Virus record (IMG/VR): IMGVR_UViG_3300008108_001548
Coordinates: 1-22,416 of that record
Length of the DNA: 22,416 nt
Strand: one strand, 5' to 3'
DNA from: a virus
The notes beneath the pieces were generated by a model. It did not search any database, had not been told where the DNA came from, and worked only from the letters and a program-made list of their open reading frames with translations. The position numbers were made by a program, and so were the translations under genes. Shown piece after piece: positions 4,159 to 22,416 of this stretch (position 1 is its first letter; every line of letters begins with the position of its first letter).

Positions 4159-4163
4159 CCCTC
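4140..4163 (-). terminator. Rho-independent terminator of the 120-aa gene
   Basis: On the minus strand, a 6-bp stem GAGGGT/ACCCTC closes a TGAC loop and is followed by C and seven T residues. The stem begins inside the TGA stop of the 4162-4524 gene, so transcription would end directly after translation. The loop sequence doubles as part of the TTGACA box of the next promoter. Confidence 0.75.
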
Positions 4164-4524
4164 ACCGAATGTACAGATAACCACCTGCCCAGTCTGCTTT
4201 CTCAAGCAGATACTCACGATCTTTGATCAAGAGCAGATTGTAGCGAGCACCCTTGGCAGGGGCTTTTACACTAGCAGGTTTGTAGACTTCACCAGTCTTT
4301 TTGTCAATGAAAGCGTGAATGCTATCACGACGACCATTGATATACATGAAAATTTTGTGATACTTACGACCAGAAGAATCTAAATCAAAACCATAGTTCT
4401 GAGTCAGGTAACTTGCATTAGCAGTGAGAGCATCACACAGCATCATACCATACTTGACGATGTTCAGCTGAATGGTGTTCTGAGCATCCTTCTGAGCAAC
4501 GTAGGAAGCGAAGTCGGTGGTCAT
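4162..4524 (-). CDS. Conserved-type phage hypothetical protein, 120 aa
   Basis: A 120-aa protein starting MTTDFASYVAQKDAQNTIQL. The ATG has a Shine-Dalgarno-like AGGGG about 7 bases upstream, and a TATAAT box lies some 25 bases before it. The N-terminal 50 residues are helical. The C-terminal half is basic and beta-like, with RRDSIHAFIDKKTGEVYKPA and a GARYNLLLIKDREYLLEK hairpin. The 'DKKTGEVYKP' pattern resembles small phage proteins of unknown function that carry a nucleotide- or nucleic-acid-binding-looking beta hairpin. A monocistronic layout with its own promoter and terminator suggests strong, separately timed expression. Confidence 0.8.
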   Translation of the reverse strand: MTTDFASYVAQKDAQNTIQLNIVKYGMMLCDALTANASYLTQNYGFDLDSSGRKYHKIFMYINGRRDSIHAFIDKKTGEVYKPASVKAPAKGARYNLLLIKDREYLLEKADWAGGYLYIR

Positions 4525-8317: not shown

Positions 8318-8944
8318 TTACCAGATATTTAAGCTTGATTTTGCCTTACGATCATCAATTTCTTCACCACCCTGAAGTTTATGTACTAGTTTACGGAACA
8401 TACAATTCCATAAGATAATTTTTTTCCCAGACTTAATCTTACTACTTTTATGTATATGGTAATTATCTACTGGAAAACAGAGCACATTAGCTTTCTTTGG
8501 AACTACTTTTAGTTTATCATTCATAAACATAGTGTTTCCACCATCATACTCATCATTCAAATAAATGATATAAGAAACTTCAGGAACATTATAAAAAGAG
8601 TGATCTTGATGCCATTGGTAAAAATCATTCTCATCATAGGTTCTAAGAATATTTTTGCCATACCATGTAAGATTACTTAATCTGTCTTTATCCCAGTCAT
8701 ACCACATCCATTTATTCTCTACAATGTACGTATGATGTACTTTTGACATCAGATTCCAGGCACAGTCATCAAGTATTTTGTGTGGGGTTACATCATAAGT
8801 ATTATTTTTTCGGTTTTCATTTCTAAATTCATGAATTAGCTCTACATCTAGATTCTCGAATATAGAATAAAACTCATCACACTCTTCGGGTGTGATGAGA
8901 CCCTCGTATTCCCAAATATATTTTGTGTGCTTTGTTACTTTCAT
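8318..8944 (-). CDS. 2OG-Fe(II) oxygenase, 208 aa
   Basis: The enzyme core shows HxD ligands His112 and Asp114 (DFYQWHQDHSFYNVP), the strand YIIYLNDEYDGGNTMF, and the second half VLCFPVDNYHIHKSSKIKSG with the distal His at 165 (His163 is the other candidate). The 2OG-binding basic residue appears to be a lysine (Lys174 in SGKKIILW) instead of the usual Arg, which is known in some subfamilies. The N-terminus (WEYEGLITPEECDEFYSIFE) resembles the first helix of prolyl-4-hydroxylase-like enzymes. Its ATG overlaps the stop of the DNA methyltransferase gene (ATGA). That coupling makes a nucleic-acid substrate conceivable, though protein substrates are commoner. Confidence 0.9.
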   Translation of the reverse strand: MKVTKHTKYIWEYEGLITPEECDEFYSIFENLDVELIHEFRNENRKNNTYDVTPHKILDDCAWNLMSKVHHTYIVENKWMWYDWDKDRLSNLTWYGKNILRTYDENDFYQWHQDHSFYNVPEVSYIIYLNDEYDGGNTMFMNDKLKVVPKKANVLCFPVDNYHIHKSSKIKSGKKIILWNCMFRKLVHKLQGGEEIDDRKAKSSLNIW

Positions 8945-9741
8945 GGGTATTTTACAATAACTAACTCAGTCTTCTCATAACGCTTGGTGCCAGACATTTG
9001 ATATGGGAACGTAAGATACCTGAACTCAGTCCATCCCTCATAGAGTGAACGTACAGCATCGCTGTTGTCATAAGACATCACGAACCCACCTTTATGTTGC
9101 TTCAAGACATCACAGAACGCTTCATGATCAAATGATTTATGAAGGGCACCATCTTTGCCATAATAGTGGCTAACAGTCTCGTAATACGGTGGGTCCAGGT
9201 ACATAAAGTCATTTTGGTGCTTCGGGATCGTGTCGAAGCAACTGCCATAGGCGAACGACACGTTCGGAGCGTGAAAATTCCTAAGTTTATCAATTCCGAC
9301 CAATCGGAACTCTGCTCTACTACGAACGGTAGAACATCCGATCTTACCTGAGTACGAACCCTTGATTGCAATGTAAAATGACACTGCTCGCTCGAACTTA
9401 TCCTCACTATCCAACCCTGGAAGGAAGGATTTGTAGTGATCGCTATCAACTAGTGGATAGTGCTGCTCGGCGGCGTCTGCCAGGCGCTGCCCACCCTCTT
9501 CCATGAGGATCTCCCAGAAGTCTGCTAGGGGGCGGAAAATGTCATACCCTTGGACTTTGATGCCCTCAGATGCCATTAGCATCTCAGTGCTAGCACCACC
9601 CCAGAATGGCGACACAATAGATTCGATGCCTGGATTGACATCACGAATGATCTTGATAAGATCCTTCTTCATACGATTCTTCCCTCCAGCATAACGATAG
9701 AGGGAAGAGTTGGTCACTTTTTGTTGGACAGATGCGGCCAT
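8941..9741 (-). CDS. D12-class DNA adenine-N6 methyltransferase (Dam-like)
   Basis: A 266-aa enzyme with all landmarks of the D12/Dam family, in alpha order. Motif X is RYAGGKNRMKKDL (YAGGK at 17-21). The SAM-binding motif I is SPFWGGASTEM (residues 44-54), followed by YDIFRPLADFWEIL. A substrate-recognition middle region comes next, and catalytic motif IV is DPPY (183-186), followed by the SYDNSD motif near 223. It transfers a methyl group from SAM to adenine N6; site specificity cannot be read from the sequence. Such phage enzymes often protect against restriction. It overlaps the HNH gene by 28 bases and is coupled to a 2OG oxygenase downstream. No strong Shine-Dalgarno is seen. Confidence 0.93.
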   Translation of the reverse strand: MAASVQQKVTNSSLYRYAGGKNRMKKDLIKIIRDVNPGIESIVSPFWGGASTEMLMASEGIKVQGYDIFRPLADFWEILMEEGGQRLADAAEQHYPLVDSDHYKSFLPGLDSEDKFERAVSFYIAIKGSYSGKIGCSTVRSRAEFRLVGIDKLRNFHAPNVSFAYGSCFDTIPKHQNDFMYLDPPYYETVSHYYGKDGALHKSFDHEAFCDVLKQHKGGFVMSYDNSDAVRSLYEGWTEFRYLTFPYQMSGTKRYEKTELVIVKYP

Positions 9742-10574
9742 GAATAGGTGTTACGAAGGACTTTAGCGGTAAACTTTTCTCTATTATACCCTACAACAAT
9801 GTATTTTGACAACTCGATGGCATCACAGACTTCTGTGATGTACTGAGTATTCTGAATAAACCCACGTACATAACGGTCTGCTGCTACTCGACAAATAGCA
9901 AAGATACGTTCTGCCAGACCAGGATCTCCATATTTTTCGTATCTCTTGGGACAAGTAGGAGCGTAAATCCTCAGTTCATCCAGAGTCATACCAAGAATAT
10001 CCACTTTGATCTTTTGCCCTTTGGCAGCTGCTGTTTGTAGATCTTTGTACCATTTGTTGAATTCCTCTTCACCTTTAATGGCACGTCGATACCATCGATC
10101 TACAAATGTAGGCATACTAGATCTCTTACGATTCTCATTGACGTTGTAGAGAACCAGAATCATATTATCAGGATGATCGCCACCGTTGGGTTCGATGTGC
10201 TCAACCTGAAAATCGAGAATATTGTAAGGACCTGTACTAGTATAAGCACACATACCATTCTGATTCAGATACATCTGGCATATCAGAATTCCTCGGGCAT
10301 CTGTAGGATTGTCAGTGATGGATTTGGTTGCTGGATCCCACCAACCAATTTGATTCTGCTGACCAGTTTTACGAATTAGAGCACGTTCTGCTGTAGTGTG
10401 AGCATAATAATACTCTTTTGCAGCTGCCCATGTAGTATCAATAATATTTGCTTTTTGACGAATTAGTTGACTACCAGAAAACAGAGTCTCCTTGTTAGCG
10501 AGGAGACCCTGTACTTGTTGCCAAGTTAGAATTTGGTTGCCAGGGATTCGTGTTGATTTGGGTGTGGTAATCAT
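9714..10574 (-). CDS. HNH endonuclease, 286 aa
   Basis: The HNH motif is at residues about 105-150: MCAYTSTGPYNILDFQVEHI, then EPNGGDHPDNMILV and NVNENRKRSS. His126 follows the Val-Glu of the first strand. Asn137, with the Asn146/Arg149 segment, supplies the rest of the metal site. Only one cysteine (Cys109) is near it, so no full zinc-ribbon is evident. The 95-residue N-terminal part (LTWQQVQGLLANKETLFSGS...) and a helical C-terminal part are family-specific and unrecognised. Its ATG overlaps the helicase stop (ATGA), and its end overlaps the methyltransferase start. Being embedded in an operon argues against a simple homing nuclease. Confidence 0.88.
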   Translation of the reverse strand: MITTPKSTRIPGNQILTWQQVQGLLANKETLFSGSQLIRQKANIIDTTWAAAKEYYYAHTTAERALIRKTGQQNQIGWWDPATKSITDNPTDARGILICQMYLNQNGMCAYTSTGPYNILDFQVEHIEPNGGDHPDNMILVLYNVNENRKRSSMPTFVDRWYRRAIKGEEEFNKWYKDLQTAAAKGQKIKVDILGMTLDELRIYAPTCPKRYEKYGDPGLAERIFAICRVAADRYVRGFIQNTQYITEVCDAIELSKYIVVGYNREKFTAKVLRNTYSWPHLSNKK

Positions 10575-11827
10575 GCTGTGGTAGAAATAGCGGGAAGACC
10601 TTTGACAAAGATGGTTTCGACAATAGATTGGAGACGTTTGATGGTAGGAGCACCGTAATTCTTGAATACAGGGACAATGACCTTACCAGAAGGTTTACGA
10701 TACATCTCAAACTTGCCTGGAGTAATCTTACCACAAGCAATGTCATCGGCATCGTCTTTGTTAAGACGAATTACACGACCGACAGTTTGCGCCATCTGAA
10801 TGATATCCAGTTGGCGAAGAAATACGGTATGAGTAAGACCGTGAACGTTGATACCCTCAGACAGAATGCTATAGTGGAAGATCACAAACTTACGGTTAGG
10901 ATCTTTGCCCCAAGCATTGAAAGTGTCAAAGAACTGCTCACGATTGACTTTGTTCTTGTTGACATAAGCACCATACTTGCTGGTGATGTGAAGAACATCA
11001 TAACCACGTTCATGAAACTCACTAAGAATGTTAGTCTTAGAAAGAAGATTGAACATAATCTTGCTGCTAGGAGCGGCGACGAGAATCTTAGCTCCTGGAG
11101 CATCAATGTCATCGATCAAATTAACGAGCATGTCACGGTCATTCTCATAAGAAAATTGACCTTTCTGGCGCTCAATGTCAACCTCATAAGCACTAACCTC
11201 TGGAGGAAGAATAGAACCAGAGTTGACAAGTTCTGGGGCAGGGATGTTGACAAGAATAGGACCGTAAACCATACGGTTGTTCATACCACGACCCATGGGA
11301 GAACGAGTGTGCTTAGGAGTAGCGGTGAAAAAATAATAACGTTTGGCGTCTATATTCAGAACACTTTGAAAGAAGTTACGTTGAACAGCATTGTGTGCTT
11401 CATCATAATAGATAACGTCAATAGGAATGCCAGACTCTACAATACGACCGAGAGAGTTGTAAGTAGTGAACAAGATGACATTAGTATTACAAGTCAGACG
11501 AAGATCGACAAAAGCAGCAATCTGCTCTGGTTTGGTGTTAGACCAGTGATAAGTTTCGCCGCTGTGAACATGACCAGGAACATACTCAACAACACCATTC
11601 AGAAGAGTAATGAACTCCTCACACAGTTGATTGGCGAGCAGAATGCGGGGAGCAACGACAACAATAACTTTATGAATCTGATCCTTAAGATGACGCTCAA
11701 TATCCTTGGCGATGATAATGCTTTTACCAGCACCAGTCGGAGCAATAATCTGACCATGAGTATTATCAAACATAGCAGCGAGAGCACGCTGCTGGCAGGA
11801 ACGAAGAACGACTGTCACAGGGGTCAT
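10571..11827 (-). CDS. SF2 DEAH-box helicase (UvsW/ResIII-like)
   Basis: A 418-aa protein from the ATG at 11827 (MTPVTVVLRSCQQRALAAMF). An upstream in-frame TTG would place the coding start across the TATAAT box. Helicase motifs follow in order: Q-like start LRSCQQRAL, Walker A APTGAGKS (29-36), Ia VVVAPRILLANQL, II DEAH (142-145), III TAT (168-170), V SEGINVHG (323-330) and VI QMAQTVGRVIR (344-354). This is a complete two-RecA-fold ATPase of the UvsW and type III restriction helicase group. UvsW-like enzymes unwind branched DNA during replication and repair. It lacks any visible extra nuclease domain; the HNH protein encoded directly next (ATGA) could serve that role. Confidence 0.92.
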   Translation of the reverse strand: MTPVTVVLRSCQQRALAAMFDNTHGQIIAPTGAGKSIIIAKDIERHLKDQIHKVIVVVAPRILLANQLCEEFITLLNGVVEYVPGHVHSGETYHWSNTKPEQIAAFVDLRLTCNTNVILFTTYNSLGRIVESGIPIDVIYYDEAHNAVQRNFFQSVLNIDAKRYYFFTATPKHTRSPMGRGMNNRMVYGPILVNIPAPELVNSGSILPPEVSAYEVDIERQKGQFSYENDRDMLVNLIDDIDAPGAKILVAAPSSKIMFNLLSKTNILSEFHERGYDVLHITSKYGAYVNKNKVNREQFFDTFNAWGKDPNRKFVIFHYSILSEGINVHGLTHTVFLRQLDIIQMAQTVGRVIRLNKDDADDIACGKITPGKFEMYRKPSGKVIVPVFKNYGAPTIKRLQSIVETIFVKGLPAISTTA

Positions 11828-11843
11828 TGCTGATGATGTGATT

Positions 11844-13389: not shown

Positions 13390-14226
13390 TCAAGCTCCTA
13401 TATTTAAATTTTCAATAATAGCACCAGTTAAACCGCTATTAATTTTGTACTGTTCAACCTTATCCCAAATTTCTTTAGCAACAGGTATACCATTTGCCAA
13501 TCTAGATTGCTCCGAAATAGCAGCAACTTTAATATTACCAACTAACGCTTCAGTAGCAAATACTCCAGTTCCTTCAATAGTGAACGAGAAGTGTGCTGGA
13601 ACAGAGAGATACTCAGTAGTATGTTCTGGATCAATTTCATGATATTTAAATGGATCGATTGGCCATTTAAATTCTTCATCATAAATTAAGAAATCTAAAA
13701 TATCTTCAAACTGAGCAGGACCCTTAACATTTTCACGAATCCATTGTCTATATTTGGTCCACAATTCTAACTCTCCTTCAAATGTTTCTGTAGCATCTGG
13801 TAATTGAGTCCAATCAGAATTTCTCAAAAGCATTTTACATTTATTTTGCTTATCCATATCAACAGCAGTGAGATATTCAGATGACGTTGCTACATCAACG
13901 ATTGCTTTTGATCTAATGATTTCATCATCAAGTTGCTGTACTTGAAGAGCTGCTTTCATAATATTAAACAACTCCTTAACCTGACCGAGATCTAGATCTT
14001 TATATTCATATCTCTGCCATCTAGATTGTTTGGTGTTAAAATCAAATTTTAATTTTTCTTTTTCTAAGATATATTCACCATCTTCAAAAATAGAAAAACT
14101 AACAATTCTATCGTTTTCGTGTGACCATTCATCTGGCATATGATCATGTAAATTTTGATTCACTTGGGCACTCAGCTTAGTAATAGCATAAACATATTCA
14201 CCAGATTGCTTCGTTCTAACCACCAT
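13390..14226 (-). CDS. Tail fibre assembly chaperone-like protein, 278 aa
   Basis: The central segment (residues about 130-167) matches the phage tail assembly chaperone pattern: CKMLLRNSDWTQLPDATETF, then ELWTKYRQWIRENV. The 'L..sDWtqlpD......W..YR..lR' signature is typical of short proteins encoded just after tail-fibre genes, as here. It is flanked by a helical acidic N-terminal region and a C-terminal part of about 100 residues (PFKYHEIDPEHTTEYLSVPA...) that I do not recognise, so the protein is longer than the minimal family. The ATG at 14226 has only a weak Shine-Dalgarno (AGG close by). The frame continues upstream past one TAA to a better start at 14319. Confidence 0.75.
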   Translation of the reverse strand: MVVRTKQSGEYVYAITKLSAQVNQNLHDHMPDEWSHENDRIVSFSIFEDGEYILEKEKLKFDFNTKQSRWQRYEYKDLDLGQVKELFNIMKAALQVQQLDDEIIRSKAIVDVATSSEYLTAVDMDKQNKCKMLLRNSDWTQLPDATETFEGELELWTKYRQWIRENVKGPAQFEDILDFLIYDEEFKWPIDPFKYHEIDPEHTTEYLSVPAHFSFTIEGTGVFATEALVGNIKVAAISEQSRLANGIPVAKEIWDKVEQYKINSGLTGAIIENLNIGA

Positions 14227-14268
14227 TAACCTGTGAAGAGCATCCCATTCTAATATTGGTTTACGCTC

Positions 14269-14319
14269 TTATGGTGGCAGATTTCTTTCAAATTGAAACT
14301 CTTCAGGATTGAATGCCAT
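14269..14319 (-). pseudogene. Separated 5' end of the chaperone gene (16 codons before an in-frame TAA)
   Basis: The ATG at 14319 (MAFNPEEFQFERNLPP, then TAA) has an AGAG 6-7 bases upstream and lies about 20 bases after a CTAAATA box. It is in the same frame as the chaperone ATG at 14226. After the TAA the frame stays open with protein-like text (ERKPILEWDALHRL) straight into MVVRTKQSG. This suggests one original gene of about 309 codons cut by a nonsense codon. It could also be a short leader peptide. Confidence 0.5.
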
Positions 14320-14340: not shown

Positions 14341-14347
14341 TATTTAG
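14341..14347 (-). promoter_or_regulatory. CTAAATA late-promoter-like box
   Basis: CTAAATA on the minus strand overlaps the TAA stop of the fibre gene and lies about 21 bases before the ATG at 14319. It shares TAAATA with the T4 late promoter TATAAATA. The same heptamer occurs before two other structural genes. Confidence 0.4.
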
Positions 14348-16554
14348 AAAGCTTTAATCAACCACTTGACCCATGTATAAGGACTTACAAGTGGAACATC
14401 AGTTTGTGGATCTAAAGATGGAGTTGGAACTAATTGTTTTGATTGAGATAAAACGAACGTTCCAGGAAGAACCTGTATACCAACTCCAAGGGCGGTAAAA
14501 GTTACATCAACACTACTATTAACTCCACCAGCAAAGCTGTTCAAAGCAGAGCTAGCAGTTCCTCCAGTTTCATTATTTCCATAACCATAAACATTATCAC
14601 TAGAAGTAGGATCTGTTAAAGAAACATAATGAGTGTGTTTTAATTTTTGAGTTGGACTATAAGATTTAACAGTAACTTCTTTTCTTGGGATATCTAATGA
14701 TGTAACAAATTTCAAAGCATCACCTTCCCCACCAGCAGTTCCACTATTTCCTGGGAATGGCTGATTAGCAAGATCAATATAATCATCAATTTCATTATAA
14801 AATGTTGTTCCAGATTTCATATTGTCTTGAATGACTGTAACTCCATTTGAATATGAACCCATAGATTCCACACCTTCATATCCAGGGTTGGTTCCACCGC
14901 CCCAATTAGTAACATTACCATTCCACCAAGCAGGATCTTTAGATCCACAATACTGTGATTTCGGTAGATTGTTATTATCTAAATTATAGTCATCGGTATG
15001 ATACCCCCAAAGGTTGAAAGCAATTGTAGTGGAGGAAGTGAATGTAGCAGCAGTCGGAGATCCAATATTATTAGTTCCAACAGCTACGGATTGACTATAT
15101 CCACCTTTACCACCCCAGTTAATTCTTCCTTTAAACGATCCTGGGTCTGCTTTACCAGTAATTAGATCATGGAAATGTAGGGGAACATCATAAATTTTTT
15201 CTTCTTTGAGTCCGACAGGACAAACAGCAGATCCAATTGTAGTGAACTCAATTGTTCCTGTTACATCTTGATAACCAGTGGTAGTAACAGTAGCAATACC
15301 AAAGAAATTAGAATCTTGGGCTGGTTGCCCAACGGCGGGTGATGCCACCTGATCAATTTCTCCAACAGCTGGATCACCAATGTTATTAACGTACCAATAT
15401 CCACCAAATGATCCTGGCTCTTCATTACCTGGAGCACCAGATTGTTTTGTTCTCTTATACTCTGGAGACAATCCAGGTGAAGCTAACTGATTTCCATCAA
15501 TAACACCAGTTCCTTTTAGATATCTGTTTCTCATATCAGGAAGTCTGAAATAAGTATCAGATCCAACTTGTTTTGATCCGTATTTAAATTCCAGAACTTT
15601 ATATAAAGCTGGATATTCTTTTGGATTTAAGTATTCACCATTACAATACATAAATCCATGGAATCTAGAATTCAATTTACCATCAAGAACACCCCAACTA
15701 TCATCTTGAGTAGCATCTTGGAAGACTGGCATCATACTACCAACTGGCATACCATCCAACTTAGCACTGTAACGAATTTGTGATGGTCCAACATATTTGA
15801 CTGGTGTGATCGAACTGTACCATTGACCAAAGATTGGATCCTGTACGTCAGCAGGAGTTTGTACACTAAAACTAGTTCCAAAAGATCCAACATATAATTG
15901 ACCAGTTCTAGTAAATCCATCAATAGGAGAAGATTTAATCCTTACACGAATTGTCGTGCCATTTGTAACCGTGGCGGCAGAACTAATTGGATAAAGATTA
16001 TAAGCACCACCATTAATTGACACTTCCATTCCATTTGTAGCAAATAAAGCTACAGATATTCCATTGGCAAGACCAGTAATAGTGATAGTCTCAGCAGATT
16101 CTGTATATACATTAGGTCCAGAAGCAAATTGTGGTGTGAAGGAAAATGGATTTGGATCACTTCCAAATTGACCAGCAGTTATGACATTCCATGTCGTTTG
16201 ATAGTATCCAGCAGTTGAAGCAGCGAGTCCAGTTTTTGTATTAAAAACTCTTGTTTCACCAACAGCATCCGAAGTTGTATACACTAAGGAAATGGTATCA
16301 AAATTTTCTAAAGTTGTCTGGGAAATGCCTTGTGCCAGTAAAATACCATTTTTCTTAATTTGTGGTAGTGCCCCACCAGGATTTACATCGCCAGCTCCAG
16401 ATTCTACAATAAAATCAACTATAGTATCGATTCCCTGAATCAGTACAGTATTGCTTTCATATTCTGTTAATAAGTCGGCTCCTGTAACTGTAATCCACGT
16501 AAACCCATTGGGGGTACTGTCAGCTTCAACACCAGTAGATACAGACCAAGCCAA
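14344..16554 (-). CDS. Tail fibre, C-terminal part with collar domain (frame 3 of a split gene)
   Basis: A 736-codon frame whose only start is a TTG at 16554; it is almost certainly the 3' part of a longer fibre gene. Residues about 133-235 are an Ig-like repeat (DPNPFSFTPQFASGPNVYTE, TITITGL, ATNGMEVSINGGAYNLYPIS, IRVRIKSS). Residues about 270-350 form a phage tail collar domain (FMYCNGEYLNPKEYPALYKV, LEFKYGSKQVGSDTYFRLPD, MRNRYLKGTG). The rest is Gly/Asn/Ser/Thr-rich beta-structure with HFHDL and KLKHTHYVSL motifs, as in receptor-binding fibre tips. The upstream frame joins it in register if one copy of the CTTGG duplication at 16546-16555 is removed. Confidence 0.85.
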   Translation of the reverse strand: MAWSVSTGVEADSTPNGFTWITVTGADLLTEYESNTVLIQGIDTIVDFIVESGAGDVNPGGALPQIKKNGILLAQGISQTTLENFDTISLVYTTSDAVGETRVFNTKTGLAASTAGYYQTTWNVITAGQFGSDPNPFSFTPQFASGPNVYTESAETITITGLANGISVALFATNGMEVSINGGAYNLYPISSAATVTNGTTIRVRIKSSPIDGFTRTGQLYVGSFGTSFSVQTPADVQDPIFGQWYSSITPVKYVGPSQIRYSAKLDGMPVGSMMPVFQDATQDDSWGVLDGKLNSRFHGFMYCNGEYLNPKEYPALYKVLEFKYGSKQVGSDTYFRLPDMRNRYLKGTGVIDGNQLASPGLSPEYKRTKQSGAPGNEEPGSFGGYWYVNNIGDPAVGEIDQVASPAVGQPAQDSNFFGIATVTTTGYQDVTGTIEFTTIGSAVCPVGLKEEKIYDVPLHFHDLITGKADPGSFKGRINWGGKGGYSQSVAVGTNNIGSPTAATFTSSTTIAFNLWGYHTDDYNLDNNNLPKSQYCGSKDPAWWNGNVTNWGGGTNPGYEGVESMGSYSNGVTVIQDNMKSGTTFYNEIDDYIDLANQPFPGNSGTAGGEGDALKFVTSLDIPRKEVTVKSYSPTQKLKHTHYVSLTDPTSSDNVYGYGNNETGGTASSALNSFAGGVNSSVDVTFTALGVGIQVLPGTFVLSQSKQLVPTPSLDPQTDVPLVSPYTWVKWLIKAF

Positions 16555-19172
16555 GCTCCTCCATTTATTTGAACTTCGGCACCATTTGTAGCAACAACAT
16601 CAACAGGAATAGTAATGCCAGAAATTGTTACTGTTTCACTGTAAATTAATGTATTAGGATTAACATTCGTTACATCAGTGAAGAAGAATGGTGCTGGTTC
16701 GGAATCGGGCGGATCGCCAGTATTGATATTCCAGTTAGCTGGAATATTACCAACAGTAACGTTTACTGTGTAAGTTGTGTTGTATAAAGATCCTACTGTC
16801 CCTCTTAATTGTATATATTGATTATTAGAAACTGACGATGCTCCCCAAGCACCACATGTTCCTGATGTTGGACCAGTACAGACTCTCGCCTGAGCAGAAA
16901 ATCCTGGGGAAGATAGTTGAATTGGAACTGATCCTGTAATGCCAGTAATTTGTACGATATTAGATTCTACAGTGGTATTAATTGCTGCTCCATCAACTTC
17001 ACTAAAGCTATATGGATTTGGACTAATATCTTGTTGTGGAAATTCAATATAGACAGCACCAGATTGTCCAGCTGGAGCACCAATTCCAGTAGGCGAAGCA
17101 GATCCTATTGGAGTTACATAGGTAGGATTATAATAAACACCACCACCATTACCACCAGTACCATCAAGATCTGTAGTTTGTATCACTCCGCCAGAACTAT
17201 CCAATTTTTGAGTTAATAATACACCAGCAGATCCATCATATCCACCGCCACCACCACCAGGACCACCGCCCTGTCCAGTAGCATTAGGAGCAGCATCACC
17301 AGGAAGATTTAAGTTTACAGTCGATGTTGATAATGGTCCATATCCACCATTATTTCCATACTGTGCTGATGTAGGAATAGTTGTATCTCCACCAGCACCT
17401 GCTCCTCCACCCCCTCCACCTGCCATGGCTATAAGAACATTATTAGAGAAAGTAATAGCAGCTGCTCCACCACCGCCGCCGCCACCACCAGACTTATCAC
17501 TAGGACCAGAATTGCCACCATTGCCACCATAAGCATATCCAAAACCACCTATTCCACCTCCTCCACCTTGTACATAGTTAGATCCATTCCCACCAACAGA
17601 TGGAGCATATACTCGAATTTTATAATCTGGTTCACCACCACCATTTAATGGCCATGCTGATGTAGGAATAGTAACAGTTCCTCTAAAGATATTACCGCTT
17701 CCACCAGGACCACCCTCAGAATTAGGAGCATCATCTCCACCCTTTCCTCCACCAGCACCAACAAGTGTTAGATAGAAAAATTGAGATCCAAAAGCAGGTA
17801 TATCATATTCAATATAATTACTTCCGCCAGGTCCGCCTTGCCAACTAGAATCGACAAACGTACCTTCATTATTGAATTGTATCGTATAGATTCTAAAAGT
17901 ATCTTGTACCCCACCAATAGAATATGTTAATTGCTGTAAAGCACCAGAGGTTACAGAAGCATTTTGTCTAACGTAGAGGATACTGTCAGTTGCTTGAAGA
18001 GTTACAGTACCACCCCAATTCACTCCATCTCTACTCAAACTACCAGAACCAGAAACGATTGTAGCGGTTGTATTAAGATCCAAACCATCAATTGCTACCT
18101 GAGCGATATGTTCTTGACCAGGATTCGATAGATATACTGGATCGGCATGGAATGGATATGGTACTGTTCTTGCTGCTCTAGTTGTTAAAGATAATGTCGC
18201 TGTTTTATCGGCATATGTTGGCGAAGATGGCCCAGATGTTGGGTTTCCTACTGTTGGATTACCGCTAGGAGGTCCTTGTAACCTAACAGTAGCAGAAGCT
18301 GAGGCACCAAAAGTAGTATTAGCATTTACTTTTAAATTGACAACATCTCCATTTTGTACAGATAATTGTTGTACCCAACTGCCTGTATTATTTTTTCTTA
18401 TTTGTCCAGCAGTGCCATCAATAATGGCATTAATTTGTACTGTAGATCCATTTAAAGTAGCTACTTTGTTTTGAATATTAGCAATAGTTTCGCTAGTACC
18501 ACTATAAGGAGACTCTAAATTACTATAACTTCCAGAAGTGTATTCTGTACCCAACCCACTGATAGGAAGGTCGGCAAAATACATAAATCCAGATTCTGCT
18601 AATATATTGGTAGAAGTAGTAGAAACTGTAACTTTTTCATATTCTAGAATTGTAAACTGACAATTAACAGCTGCTGGATTTGATGATGGTGTTGGTACGG
18701 TGATTACATCACCTGCCTGATAACCATATCCAGGATCGACAATGAATACTCCTGTAGCAAAATTATCAATCGCTCCAATATCTTGCTTGACTTTCATTCC
18801 ACTTCCAGACCCACCAGTGGTGCTGTAAGTTGTGCCAAATACAAATCCAGATCCAGTTATAAATCCAACTTGACCAGCATTTGTTTTTATATTATATGTA
18901 AATATTGGCGAAGCAGTAATAGCATTTGGATATCTATCAACCTCAGTCCAAATTTGCCAATCATCTGTAACGTTTCCGTTAGTTTGTACTACTCGATAAT
19001 CTCCGTAAGTATTGGTAGATCCATAAGTGCCACTAGTGTTATTTTCATATCCACCAGTTAAAGTATCTCCGTTTACAGCAAAAATTGCCAGAGATCCATC
19101 GGATTTGTCAGTATAAGATGGACCATTAATAATTCTGGTATTTACAGTATCACCAAGAACTAACCCCGTCAA
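16467..19172 (-). CDS. Tail fibre, middle part with glycine-rich domain (frame 2 of a split gene)
   Basis: A 901-codon frame starting at a TTG (19172). Protein-like text continues upstream in frame to about 19350 (DYYTQDISIANIDGDAVLRA) without any ATG, so this is not a true start. Residues about 450-715 form a Gly-rich domain (YLTLVGAGGGKGG, then long glycine runs) of the type common in phage fibres. Residues about 730-870 contain two Ig-like repeats (NPYSFSEVDGAAINTTVESN; VDVVATNGAEVQINGGAW). After GGAW the frame turns to nonsense-like LGLYLLVLKLTVPP and stops. The natural continuation is in the next frame, reached by removing 5 bases. Extracellular virion adhesin. Confidence 0.85.
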   Translation of the reverse strand: MTGLVLGDTVNTRIINGPSYTDKSDGSLAIFAVNGDTLTGGYENNTSGTYGSTNTYGDYRVVQTNGNVTDDWQIWTEVDRYPNAITASPIFTYNIKTNAGQVGFITGSGFVFGTTYSTTGGSGSGMKVKQDIGAIDNFATGVFIVDPGYGYQAGDVITVPTPSSNPAAVNCQFTILEYEKVTVSTTSTNILAESGFMYFADLPISGLGTEYTSGSYSNLESPYSGTSETIANIQNKVATLNGSTVQINAIIDGTAGQIRKNNTGSWVQQLSVQNGDVVNLKVNANTTFGASASATVRLQGPPSGNPTVGNPTSGPSSPTYADKTATLSLTTRAARTVPYPFHADPVYLSNPGQEHIAQVAIDGLDLNTTATIVSGSGSLSRDGVNWGGTVTLQATDSILYVRQNASVTSGALQQLTYSIGGVQDTFRIYTIQFNNEGTFVDSSWQGGPGGSNYIEYDIPAFGSQFFYLTLVGAGGGKGGDDAPNSEGGPGGSGNIFRGTVTIPTSAWPLNGGGEPDYKIRVYAPSVGGNGSNYVQGGGGGIGGFGYAYGGNGGNSGPSDKSGGGGGGGGAAAITFSNNVLIAMAGGGGGGAGAGGDTTIPTSAQYGNNGGYGPLSTSTVNLNLPGDAAPNATGQGGGPGGGGGGYDGSAGVLLTQKLDSSGGVIQTTDLDGTGGNGGGVYYNPTYVTPIGSASPTGIGAPAGQSGAVYIEFPQQDISPNPYSFSEVDGAAINTTVESNIVQITGITGSVPIQLSSPGFSAQARVCTGPTSGTCGAWGASSVSNNQYIQLRGTVGSLYNTTYTVNVTVGNIPANWNINTGDPPDSEPAPFFFTDVTNVNPNTLIYSETVTISGITIPVDVVATNGAEVQINGGAWLGLYLLVLKLTVPPMGLRGLQLQEPTY
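16546..16555 (-). repeat. 5-bp tandem duplication (CTTGG twice) at a frame break
   Basis: The minus strand reads GCTTGGCTTGGTCT. Removing one CTTGG gives GGA GCT TGG TCT GTA TCT and joins the two fibre frames without a gap (GGAW-SVSTGVEADS). The duplicated unit is exact. Confidence 0.85.
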
Positions 19173-19344
19173 AGACTGAACCCAAGAACCAGTACCATTT
19201 TTTCTAATGGTAATATCACCAGTAGATGTTGCTCTTAATACAGCATCGCCATCAATATTGGCAATAGAAATATCTTGGGTGTAATAATCTACACCACCAT
19301 CAGCAGGAATTTTTGTATCTACTCTATCTGTAAATTGATAGCTA

Positions 19345-19788
19345 TTAATTCGTATAATTTGCCGTTATACTTGTTCTCCAAGAATCAAATCCCCCATTTC
19401 TATAAATTCTGAACTGAGCAGTGCTATTGGCAGTGCTACTATTTTTGGGACCGATATCAATGGCAGATATTGTAGCTGGAATAGGAACTTCAATATCAGA
19501 AATATCAATTACTTGAGAATAGTAAGTAGTGTTTCTTTGGAAAGTACTTGTTGCTCCAGAACTACTAGTTCCATTGAAAGCACCAGTAAATCCAGATTGG
19601 TTTGTGAAGGAAAATGTTTGTGGGGTTGCATCAGGAATCTTAGTACCGAAAGTAACTCCATCGGGATCGGATCCATTACCAATTTTTACGTTAACAAGTA
19701 CGCTTTGATTCCAATAATTTGGAGTAACGTATCTAATTTGAATATTATCCCCGTTGCTTACATATACGGGAGTTGATGAGAATGGCAT
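19345..19788 (-). CDS. Tail fibre, N-terminal part (frame 1 of a split gene)
   Basis: A 147-aa frame with a real start: ATG at 19788 with Shine-Dalgarno AGGG 6 bases upstream and a CTAAATA box about 36 bases upstream. It begins MPFSSTPVYVSNGDNIQIRY and contains one Ig-like repeat (TFSFTNQSGFTGAFNGTSSS; YSQVIDISDIEVPIPATISA; AQFRIYRNGGFDSWRTS). The stop (19347-19345) falls in the middle of a repeat. A second frame opens 20 bases earlier and continues the same domain. Deleting one T in GAATTAAT gives ANYTNNSYQFTDRVDTKIPA in register. The intact gene would be 14344-19788, about 1,800 codons, a virion fibre. Confidence 0.8.
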   Translation of the reverse strand: MPFSSTPVYVSNGDNIQIRYVTPNYWNQSVLVNVKIGNGSDPDGVTFGTKIPDATPQTFSFTNQSGFTGAFNGTSSSGATSTFQRNTTYYSQVIDISDIEVPIPATISAIDIGPKNSSTANSTAQFRIYRNGGFDSWRTSITANYTN

Positions 19789-20220: not shown

Positions 20221-20227
20221 TATTTAG
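20221..20227 (-). promoter_or_regulatory. CTAAATA late-promoter-like box
   Basis: CTAAATA on the minus strand overlaps the TAA stop of the lectin-fibre gene and lies 13 bases before the ATG at 20207. The leader would be very short, so this copy is less certain than the one at 19824. Confidence 0.3.
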
Positions 20228-21390
20228 ATCTGTCTAATATCTTTCCATCCAGATCCATTAACATTTACTTGAACACTACTATTATCACTCTTTATTTCTA
20301 CTGGAATATCAACATCATTTACTGGTATTTGTCCAGTAGTTAAGTATTGAGTAGGCGTATTTGTTATGAGGTCAATATCTGTATATGGATAGGCATTAGA
20401 AATATTTCCAATATCAAAATCTTCCGCTACTCTAGGAGCTTTTGTGATTACATTGACGTTGAAACTAGATGGACCTACAGTTACTGGTATTGTTTTAGTG
20501 TTTGTCTTACCGTATATACCAGTAACACCAGTAAGATCTGTATTATAAGCTAATGTAGTTGTTCTCATTCTCAAAGTATTTCCAGCATTAACGTTAATTG
20601 GATTGCCAAATGCTCCCCCGATACTAAATGTAGTTCCAGAAGCAGATGTACTTACGCTAATTGGCATATCAATACCACTCAAAGTACCCAAAACTAAATC
20701 TGTTGTTGTATTTGGATCTAAATTATTGAATGTAGTTGTCCAACTATTAGTAGTAGTGTTGTCATTATATGCTTGTACAGTTATAGTAGAACTAGTAGAC
20801 TCATTCAATTCATTATAAACTGTTAATGTGTAAGTTCTACTTGCTGGACTATTAGATCCGACAACAGATTGTGGAAGATTAGTGATGCTTCTAGTACCAG
20901 AAACACTTACGTTCCATGATTCACCAGCAGAACTAGTCAAAGTAGCACTCAATCCGTTGTTGCTACCCCAACTTAAAGTAGTGCTATATTGTGGAGATCC
21001 AGTAGTACTACTTTGTGGATTTGGAGATGCGAAAAAAGAAGTAATAGTTGGTACAGGTACAAATACCTGAACCGTACCTTCTGCCAGAAGTTGAACATAA
21101 AGTCTTTTATATGTACCAACACAAGGATCTCCAAATGTTCCATTATCTGGACTAACACAACCGCTAGTTCTTCCTATAAAAGCACCAGAAACTACACCAC
21201 CAGAATTTCCAGCATGACACCCGCCATAAGAATATCCACCACAACCACCATTAGGTGTTCCATAACTGGCAAATTGAACCTGTGTGAATGTAGTGCCAGA
21301 TGGAGCACTTAGACACAAAGGGTCATAACTATAAACCTCTCCTTTTTGTCCACAGACAGTGTATGATACTGGTACACTTTTAAATCCCAT
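20224..21390 (-). CDS. Fibre/adhesin with SUEL-like lectin domain, 388 aa
   Basis: Start ATG at 21390 with an excellent Shine-Dalgarno (AAGGAG, 8-9 bases upstream), directly after the upstream TAA. Residues about 20-103 match the D-galactoside/L-rhamnose-binding (SUEL) lectin pattern: FASYGTPNGGCGGYSYGGCH, GCVSPDNGTFGDPCVGTYKR, LYVQLL, with cysteines at 26, 50, 58, 78 and 90. The family binds rhamnose or galactose. Then comes an Ig-like module with TLSWGSNNGLSATLTSSAGE, a repeat with LGTLSGIDMPISVSTSASGT, and a C-terminal part (EDFDIGNISNAYPYTDIDLI... GSGWKDIRQI) shared with the next paralog. A virion receptor-binding role is likely. Confidence 0.82.
   Translation of the reverse strand: MGFKSVPVSYTVCGQKGEVYSYDPLCLSAPSGTTFTQVQFASYGTPNGGCGGYSYGGCHAGNSGGVVSGAFIGRTSGCVSPDNGTFGDPCVGTYKRLYVQLLAEGTVQVFVPVPTITSFFASPNPQSSTTGSPQYSTTLSWGSNNGLSATLTSSAGESWNVSVSGTRSITNLPQSVVGSNSPASRTYTLTVYNELNESTSSTITVQAYNDNTTTNSWTTTFNNLDPNTTTDLVLGTLSGIDMPISVSTSASGTTFSIGGAFGNPINVNAGNTLRMRTTTLAYNTDLTGVTGIYGKTNTKTIPVTVGPSSFNVNVITKAPRVAEDFDIGNISNAYPYTDIDLITNTPTQYLTTGQIPVNDVDIPVEIKSDNSSVQVNVNGSGWKDIRQI
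20663..20692 (-). repeat. 30-base identical segment shared by the two fibre paralogs
   Basis: An identical 30-mer occurs here and at 21833-21862, coding LGTLSGIDMP in both genes. It marks the most conserved part of the duplicated C-terminal halves and could serve for recombination between them. Confidence 0.8.
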
Positions 21391-22416
21391 TTAAATACTC
21401 CTTAAATCTTGCCAAGTTCCGCCATTTTTACTAATTTGTACATTAGAATTATCAGTTTTTACTTCTACAGGTATTTCCACATCATTGATTGCTATTTGTC
21501 CAGTAGTTAGGTGTTGAGTTGGTGTGTTTGTAATCAGATCAATATCTACATATGGATACTTATTTGTCAAATTCCCAATATCAAAATCTTCCTGAATTCT
21601 AGGAGCTCTCGTCGTAACAGTAACATTGAAAGAAGAGAATCCAATCGTTACTGATATTGTTTTGGTATTTGTTTTTCCATAGATGCCAGTAGAACCAGAA
21701 ATATCAGTATTAAACGCCAATGTTGTTGTTCTCAGAAAAACTGTATCACCATTATTAAAAGTTCTTGGATTACCATATGTTCCAGCAGAAGTACCAAAAG
21801 TAGTTCCAGAAGCAGTTGTAGTAGCTACAATAGGCATATCAATACCACTCAAAGTACCCAAAGCAAGATCAACAGTAGTATTAGGCTCCAAATTGCTAAA
21901 AGAAGTAGTAAAACTGTTAGATAACGTAGCGTCATTTTTAGCAGTAACTGTTAAAGTGGCTGGGTTACCATTTGTTAATGTACTAGTACAGTAAGTATTG
22001 AAGCAAGCAGTTAAAGTATATGTTCTAGAAGCAGGAGAATTAGAACCAGCTACAGATTGAGGAAGATTTGTAATATTATAAGAGGTTAATCCAGTAACAT
22101 TAATATTCTCTCCACTAGAACTAGTTATCGTCAAACTATTAGCATCATTAACATTCCAGTTTAACGTAGTCGTATATAAAGGGGTTCCACCAGAACTCGT
22201 TTGATTAAGTGGATTGGCACTAAAAGAAACTATCTCAGGAACAACGGAGACATATTGAACATTAATATATCCACCCCCACCGTTTGTAGATTGAGCGGCT
22301 AAAGTACTATAACTAGTATTCCATGCGCTTCCACCACCACCACCACCTGCTCCACCACTTGAGTTATCACATCCACCAGATCCACCACCACCGCCGCCAG
22401 ATCCACCGCCACCACC
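21391..22416 (-). CDS. Fibre/adhesin paralog with Gly-rich N-terminus, 5' end beyond window
   Basis: The frame is open from the window edge (GGGGGSGGGGGSGGCDNSSG...) through 341 codons, so the start lies beyond 22416. The visible N-terminal part is Gly-rich (GAGGGGGGSAW, NGGGGYINVQYV) with one Cys. It is followed by the same Ig-like module (TTTLNWNVNDANSLTITSSS), repeat (LGTLSGIDMPIVATTTASGT) and C-terminal block (EDFDIGNLTNKYPYVDIDLI, GGTWQDLRSI) as the lectin paralog downstream. The two genes are therefore a tandem duplication with different N-terminal parts. It ends 0 bases before the next ATG and supplies that gene's ribosome binding site. Virion adhesin. Confidence 0.85.
   Translation of the reverse strand, partial: GGGGGSGGGGGGSGGCDNSSGGAGGGGGGSAWNTSYSTLAAQSTNGGGGYINVQYVSVVPEIVSFSANPLNQTSSGGTPLYTTTLNWNVNDANSLTITSSSGENINVTGLTSYNITNLPQSVAGSNSPASRTYTLTACFNTYCTSTLTNGNPATLTVTAKNDATLSNSFTTSFSNLEPNTTVDLALGTLSGIDMPIVATTTASGTTFGTSAGTYGNPRTFNNGDTVFLRTTTLAFNTDISGSTGIYGKTNTKTISVTIGFSSFNVTVTTRAPRIQEDFDIGNLTNKYPYVDIDLITNTPTQHLTTGQIAINDVEIPVEVKTDNSNVQISKNGGTWQDLRSI

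Follow-up and report, generated by a model that had tools for sequence, protein, structure and literature searches.

The DNA analysed here, hereafter the window, is the whole of one IMG/VR virus record (IMGVR_UViG_3300008108_001548; 22,416 bp), which is AT-rich, contains no Ns, and gave zero matches in tRNA and Rfam scans. Its minus strand carries, between positions 14344 and 19788, a short tail fibre gene of the T4-gp12 type with a tail collar domain (phrog_4924), which in this record is present as three pieces. All three minus-strand pieces, namely 19788–19345, 19172–16467 and 16554–14344, match PHROG 4924 (short tail fibre), with E-values across the pieces of 1.3e-71, 2.3e-15 and 2e-8. The last, C-terminal piece also matches the Collar family PF07484 (39.2 bits against a cut-off of 24) and contains the motifs HFH and HTH; the HxH pattern is kept in four relatives and is a candidate equivalent of the C-terminal His-X-His zinc site of T4 (His445/His447).PMC3004832 In T4, gp12 is the short tail fibre of the baseplate, and the host receptor is bound by its C-terminus.PMC3004832 A search by sequence for a solved structure matching the C-terminal piece found none.

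Judged from sequence likeness, the owner of this gene is a cyanophage-like myovirus. In tblastn searches of phage records, the C-terminal frame matched Synechococcus and Prochlorococcus phages, cyanophages, and one marine phage, the middle frame matched only Synechococcus phages, and the best match was to Synechococcus phage Sf-FR1. The short tail fibres of cyanophage T4-like myoviruses (PHROG 4924; SfFR1_28 in Sf-FR1) resemble the window gene in several respects: the family is common to all three window pieces, the collar domain and HxH motifs lie near the C-terminus, and the downstream order is the same, i.e., a phrog_4697 chaperone homologue, a 130-residue ORF, and a DNA helicase. The difference is that the window gene is in three pieces, with ~57 and ~44 residues absent at the breaks.

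The tail fibre gene in the window and in its relatives

A profile scan enlarged the set of relatives to 17 records corresponding to 15 distinct sequences; apart from the isolate phage Sf-FR1 these are IMG/VR contigs, and two records are partial at the 5′ end. In two cases (L003 and L028, L026 and L032), a pair of contigs from separate metagenomes has one and the same fibre protein, and these phages were apparently recovered repeatedly. The fibre is a single ORF of 1853–1951 codons in Sf-FR1, L002, L005, and L003, and whole copies among the relatives go from 1806 to 2090 codons. The nearest relative, L002, with ~79% DNA identity, was used as the reference. A near-identity search of phage records returned no match.

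The original prediction described two minus-strand frames, 16467–19172 (901 codons) and 14344–16554 (736 codons, with TTG as its sole start), overlapping at a CTTGG pair in tandem at 16555–16546, and it took them for one fibre gene that is split at this point. The frames, the start codon, and the pair, whose text is CTTGGCTTGG, are as described, and the split gene is supported by the relatives. A continuous ORF crosses the site at 16546–16555 in 17 of 17 related records, a gene boundary is found there in 0 of the 17, and no relative has the natural boundary with an ATG that would speak against a split gene.

Alignment to the reference reveals that the gene extends further upstream than these two frames. 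Its N-terminal piece (19348–19788, minus strand), with the true ATG at 19788, has 147 codons and is 86% identical to residues 1–147 of L002. It ends at a first break, break A (19343–19361, minus strand), where ~185 bp net are absent with respect to L002 and residues 148–204 (~57) have no counterpart; all relatives covering these residues have them. The middle piece (16551–19361, minus strand), which holds the 901-codon frame, is 82% identical to residues 205–1140. As read from this alignment, the TTG at 19172 that opens the 901-codon frame is not a gene start, and the frame continues the ORF 19345–19788 across break A. The C-terminal piece (14347–16554, minus strand), formed by the 736-codon frame and carrying the PF07484 collar and the HxH motifs, is 84% identical to residues 1185–1921. 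The DNA alignment to L002 contains no further net frame-breaking change over the 5.7-kb fibre gene, which, with its two breaks, is not the intact ORF found in the relatives.

All three pieces appear to be under strong purifying selection, with dN/dS values against L002 of 0.10–0.15 (0.11, 0.15 and 0.12 from the N- to the C-terminal piece), as obtained with a simple Nei-Gojobori count at which synonymous sites are near saturation. The 60–64 codons on either side of the CTTGG site are constrained at least as much as the pieces overall. Because both the pieces and these flanks are still constrained, the break at this site is either recent or not real: the gene was whole until a very short time ago, or still is in the actual phage.

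Missing sequence at the CTTGG site

The claim that a 5-bp duplication splits the gene did not survive comparison with the relatives. At this second break, break B (16546–16555, minus strand), ~139 bp net are absent with respect to L002, a length not divisible by three, which is why the frame is lost. Residues 1141–1184 of L002 (44 residues) have no counterpart in the window and have one in every covering relative. Nor is the text that results from removing one CTTGG a native fibre repeat, as had been proposed, since all relatives have the repeat stretch that it lacks.

The same conclusion is suggested by a model of the L002 repeat domain (pLDDT 92), a predicted beta-sandwich with seven strands. 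The domain residues absent at break B, 49–92, cover the predicted strands 62–68 and 81–88, i.e., at least two of the seven. According to this model, dropping one CTTGG reopens the frame, yet the beta-sandwich domain stays without its second half. A fold search with the domain gave weak matches only, none of them below an E-value of 0.001. In a pattern search of genome contigs, one MAG contig had related repeats and one did not. One contig (L021; NZGE01000063.1), binned as Magnetococcales MAG MED694, contains several repeat copies that are 40–53% identical to the beta-sandwich repeat of the fibre, and is possibly a phage contig inside a MAG bin.

Regarding the tandem pair, in L002 GCTTGG stands to the left of the seam and TGG to its right, and because this Trp codon flanks both sides, the tandem look needs little chance coincidence beyond the preceding CT. 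Exact 5-bp tandem duplications number 25 in the window, compared with an average of 21 (range 10–33) in first-order Markov sequences, and the exact 10-mer CTTGGCTTGG turns up in 4 of 100 shuffles. Tandem Repeats Finder reported no array at the CTTGG site. When the junction and its flanks were searched for elsewhere in IMG/VR, with the window's own and near-identical records left out, only the nearest relative was returned, and it lacks the junction.

Other lesions and the origin of the junctions

The fibre gene is not the only one affected. After it comes a tail assembly chaperone homologue (phrog_4697; 13390–14319, minus strand), which starts with an ATG at 14319 and has an in-frame TAA at codon 17 (14271–14269), where L002 has GAA; the relatives read through, and the homologue has 309 residues. 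An alternative genetic code was considered for this TAA and rejected, since several window genes, the fibre included, end in TAA. Two other genes have losses that keep the frame: the gene at 9714–10574 lacks ~46 residues near 9935, which are present in both relatives compared (L018 and L019), and the gene at 4162–4524 lacks ~31 residues near 4390, which are present in all three relatives compared (L018, L019, and L020). These two losses may be natural divergence; in the genes compared, the relatives have no loss as large, save for one cut by a contig end.

The CTTGG site is thus a deletion seam: ~139 bp net of the fibre gene, which encode the second half of a beta-sandwich domain, are lacking exactly at CTTGGCTTGG, and the CTTGG pair is just the place where the two sides meet. 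We consider it probable that this seam arose as an artefact when the IMG/VR record was assembled or its gaps were closed, and that it is not a functional feature. If so, the seam near 16550 and its sister seam near 19350 would both derive from faulty assembly or gap closing, and the nonsense codon and the two other window-only losses would probably have the same origin. An assembly error or an inactivating mutation had been listed among the possible causes in the original prediction, and the unbroken genes of all the relatives support this part of it. An artefact is favoured because the clean losses cluster in one record that bears no sign of relaxed selection, and because a 22-kb record with several independent lesions, some of them in genes on which a virulent T4-like phage should depend, is better accounted for by the quality of the record than by biology. 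Among marine metagenome contigs, a cyanophage-like one has been reported as a probable misassembly,PMC11727651 and misassembled or chimeric viral contigs of this kind likewise have several clean seams inside conserved genes of one contig, with the difference that they were judged by read depth and the window seams purely by sequence comparison. As for the way in which the seams might have formed, the exact words that their flanks have in common are of 6–8 bases at most, with 8 as the maximum across a seam. A simple repeat collapse of the de Bruijn type is therefore unsupported, and the artefact reading has to assume gap closing or chimeric joins instead. Against an artefact count the absence of Ns, the in-frame nature of two of the four losses, which could be natural divergence, and the existence of real sub-kilobase deletions in phages, such as a 39-residue in-frame deletion in an HP1p17 protein.PMC4893331

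The main rival account is of real and recent deletions of ~185 and ~139 bp in a phage lineage that is defective, or in a minor genotype, whose chaperone gene also gained a stop; its genome would have been sampled before it decayed further, or while mixed infection complemented it. This account is possible, even if we find it rather unlikely. The lesions are clean, much of the remaining record consists of intact ORFs that match the relatives well, and a very recent lesion would still be accompanied by the purifying selection that is seen. However, two large and independent frame-breaking deletions in one gene, together with a nonsense codon in the next one, are unlikely for a virulent phage, which cannot do without its short tail fibre. 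Moreover, a second copy of the lost stretches was looked for in the window and only weak paralogous repeat matches were found, and the junction occurs in no other IMG/VR record once the window's own and near-identical ones are set aside. That the losses are real and that a sub-population with large adhesin deletions and the chaperone stop persists, either because mixed infections complement it or as a second-fibre host-range variant, seems to us quite improbable.

There is scarcely any likelihood left for the slipped-strand phase-variation switch put forward in the original prediction, in which a 5-bp unit would turn the fibre tip on and off. It has in its favour the exact CTTGG tandem pair, a single copy of which would open the frame. 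Unit gain or loss cannot switch the gene, however, because ~44 repeat codons that all relatives have are absent with either number of units; it becomes less likely still because of the nonsense codon in the next gene and of break A, which lies upstream and cuts the frame off from its start codon regardless. The site resembles simple-sequence contingency loci in that a short tandem pair lies where the frame of a surface-binding gene breaks, but differs from them in that there are two units only, in pairs that are common by chance and form no array, that coding sequence is missing there, and that a second break lies upstream, so that no change in unit number restores the full native protein. A narrow literature search found no paper on a phage fibre gene switched in this way. 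Similarly hard to credit is the idea that two genes naturally meet here and that the second is translated separately, from the TTG at 16554–16552. A purine-rich GGAGGAG does lie upstream (16562–16556), though at one base from the TTG it is too close for a usual ribosome-binding site, but such a boundary is absent in every relative, all with one ORF, both frames sit inside one domain, and the TTG belongs to the junction text. A programmed frameshift was rejected because codons are missing and not merely out of frame, and the footprint of a transposon with a 5-bp target duplication because, between the two copies, native sequence has been lost.

A seam in a metagenome contig can be misread as a phage phase-variation switch, and when a short tandem pair coincides with a frame break, slippage should be considered only after relatives have been compared for missing sequence. 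The present record deserves to be flagged as unreliable at 16546–16555, ~19350, 14271–14269, ~9935, and ~4390.

Other genes of the window

The region 20224–22416 contains two tandem paralogous structural genes, each having the same relatives as matches, and the first carries a SUEL lectin domain (PF02140). A D12-class adenine DNA methyltransferase (PF02086) is encoded at 8941–9741 and is 89% identical in L018. Opposite the helicase gene lies a plus-strand ORF of 401 codons (10628–11833), which, as matching antisense ORFs are carried by the relatives, is probably a by-product of codon usage.
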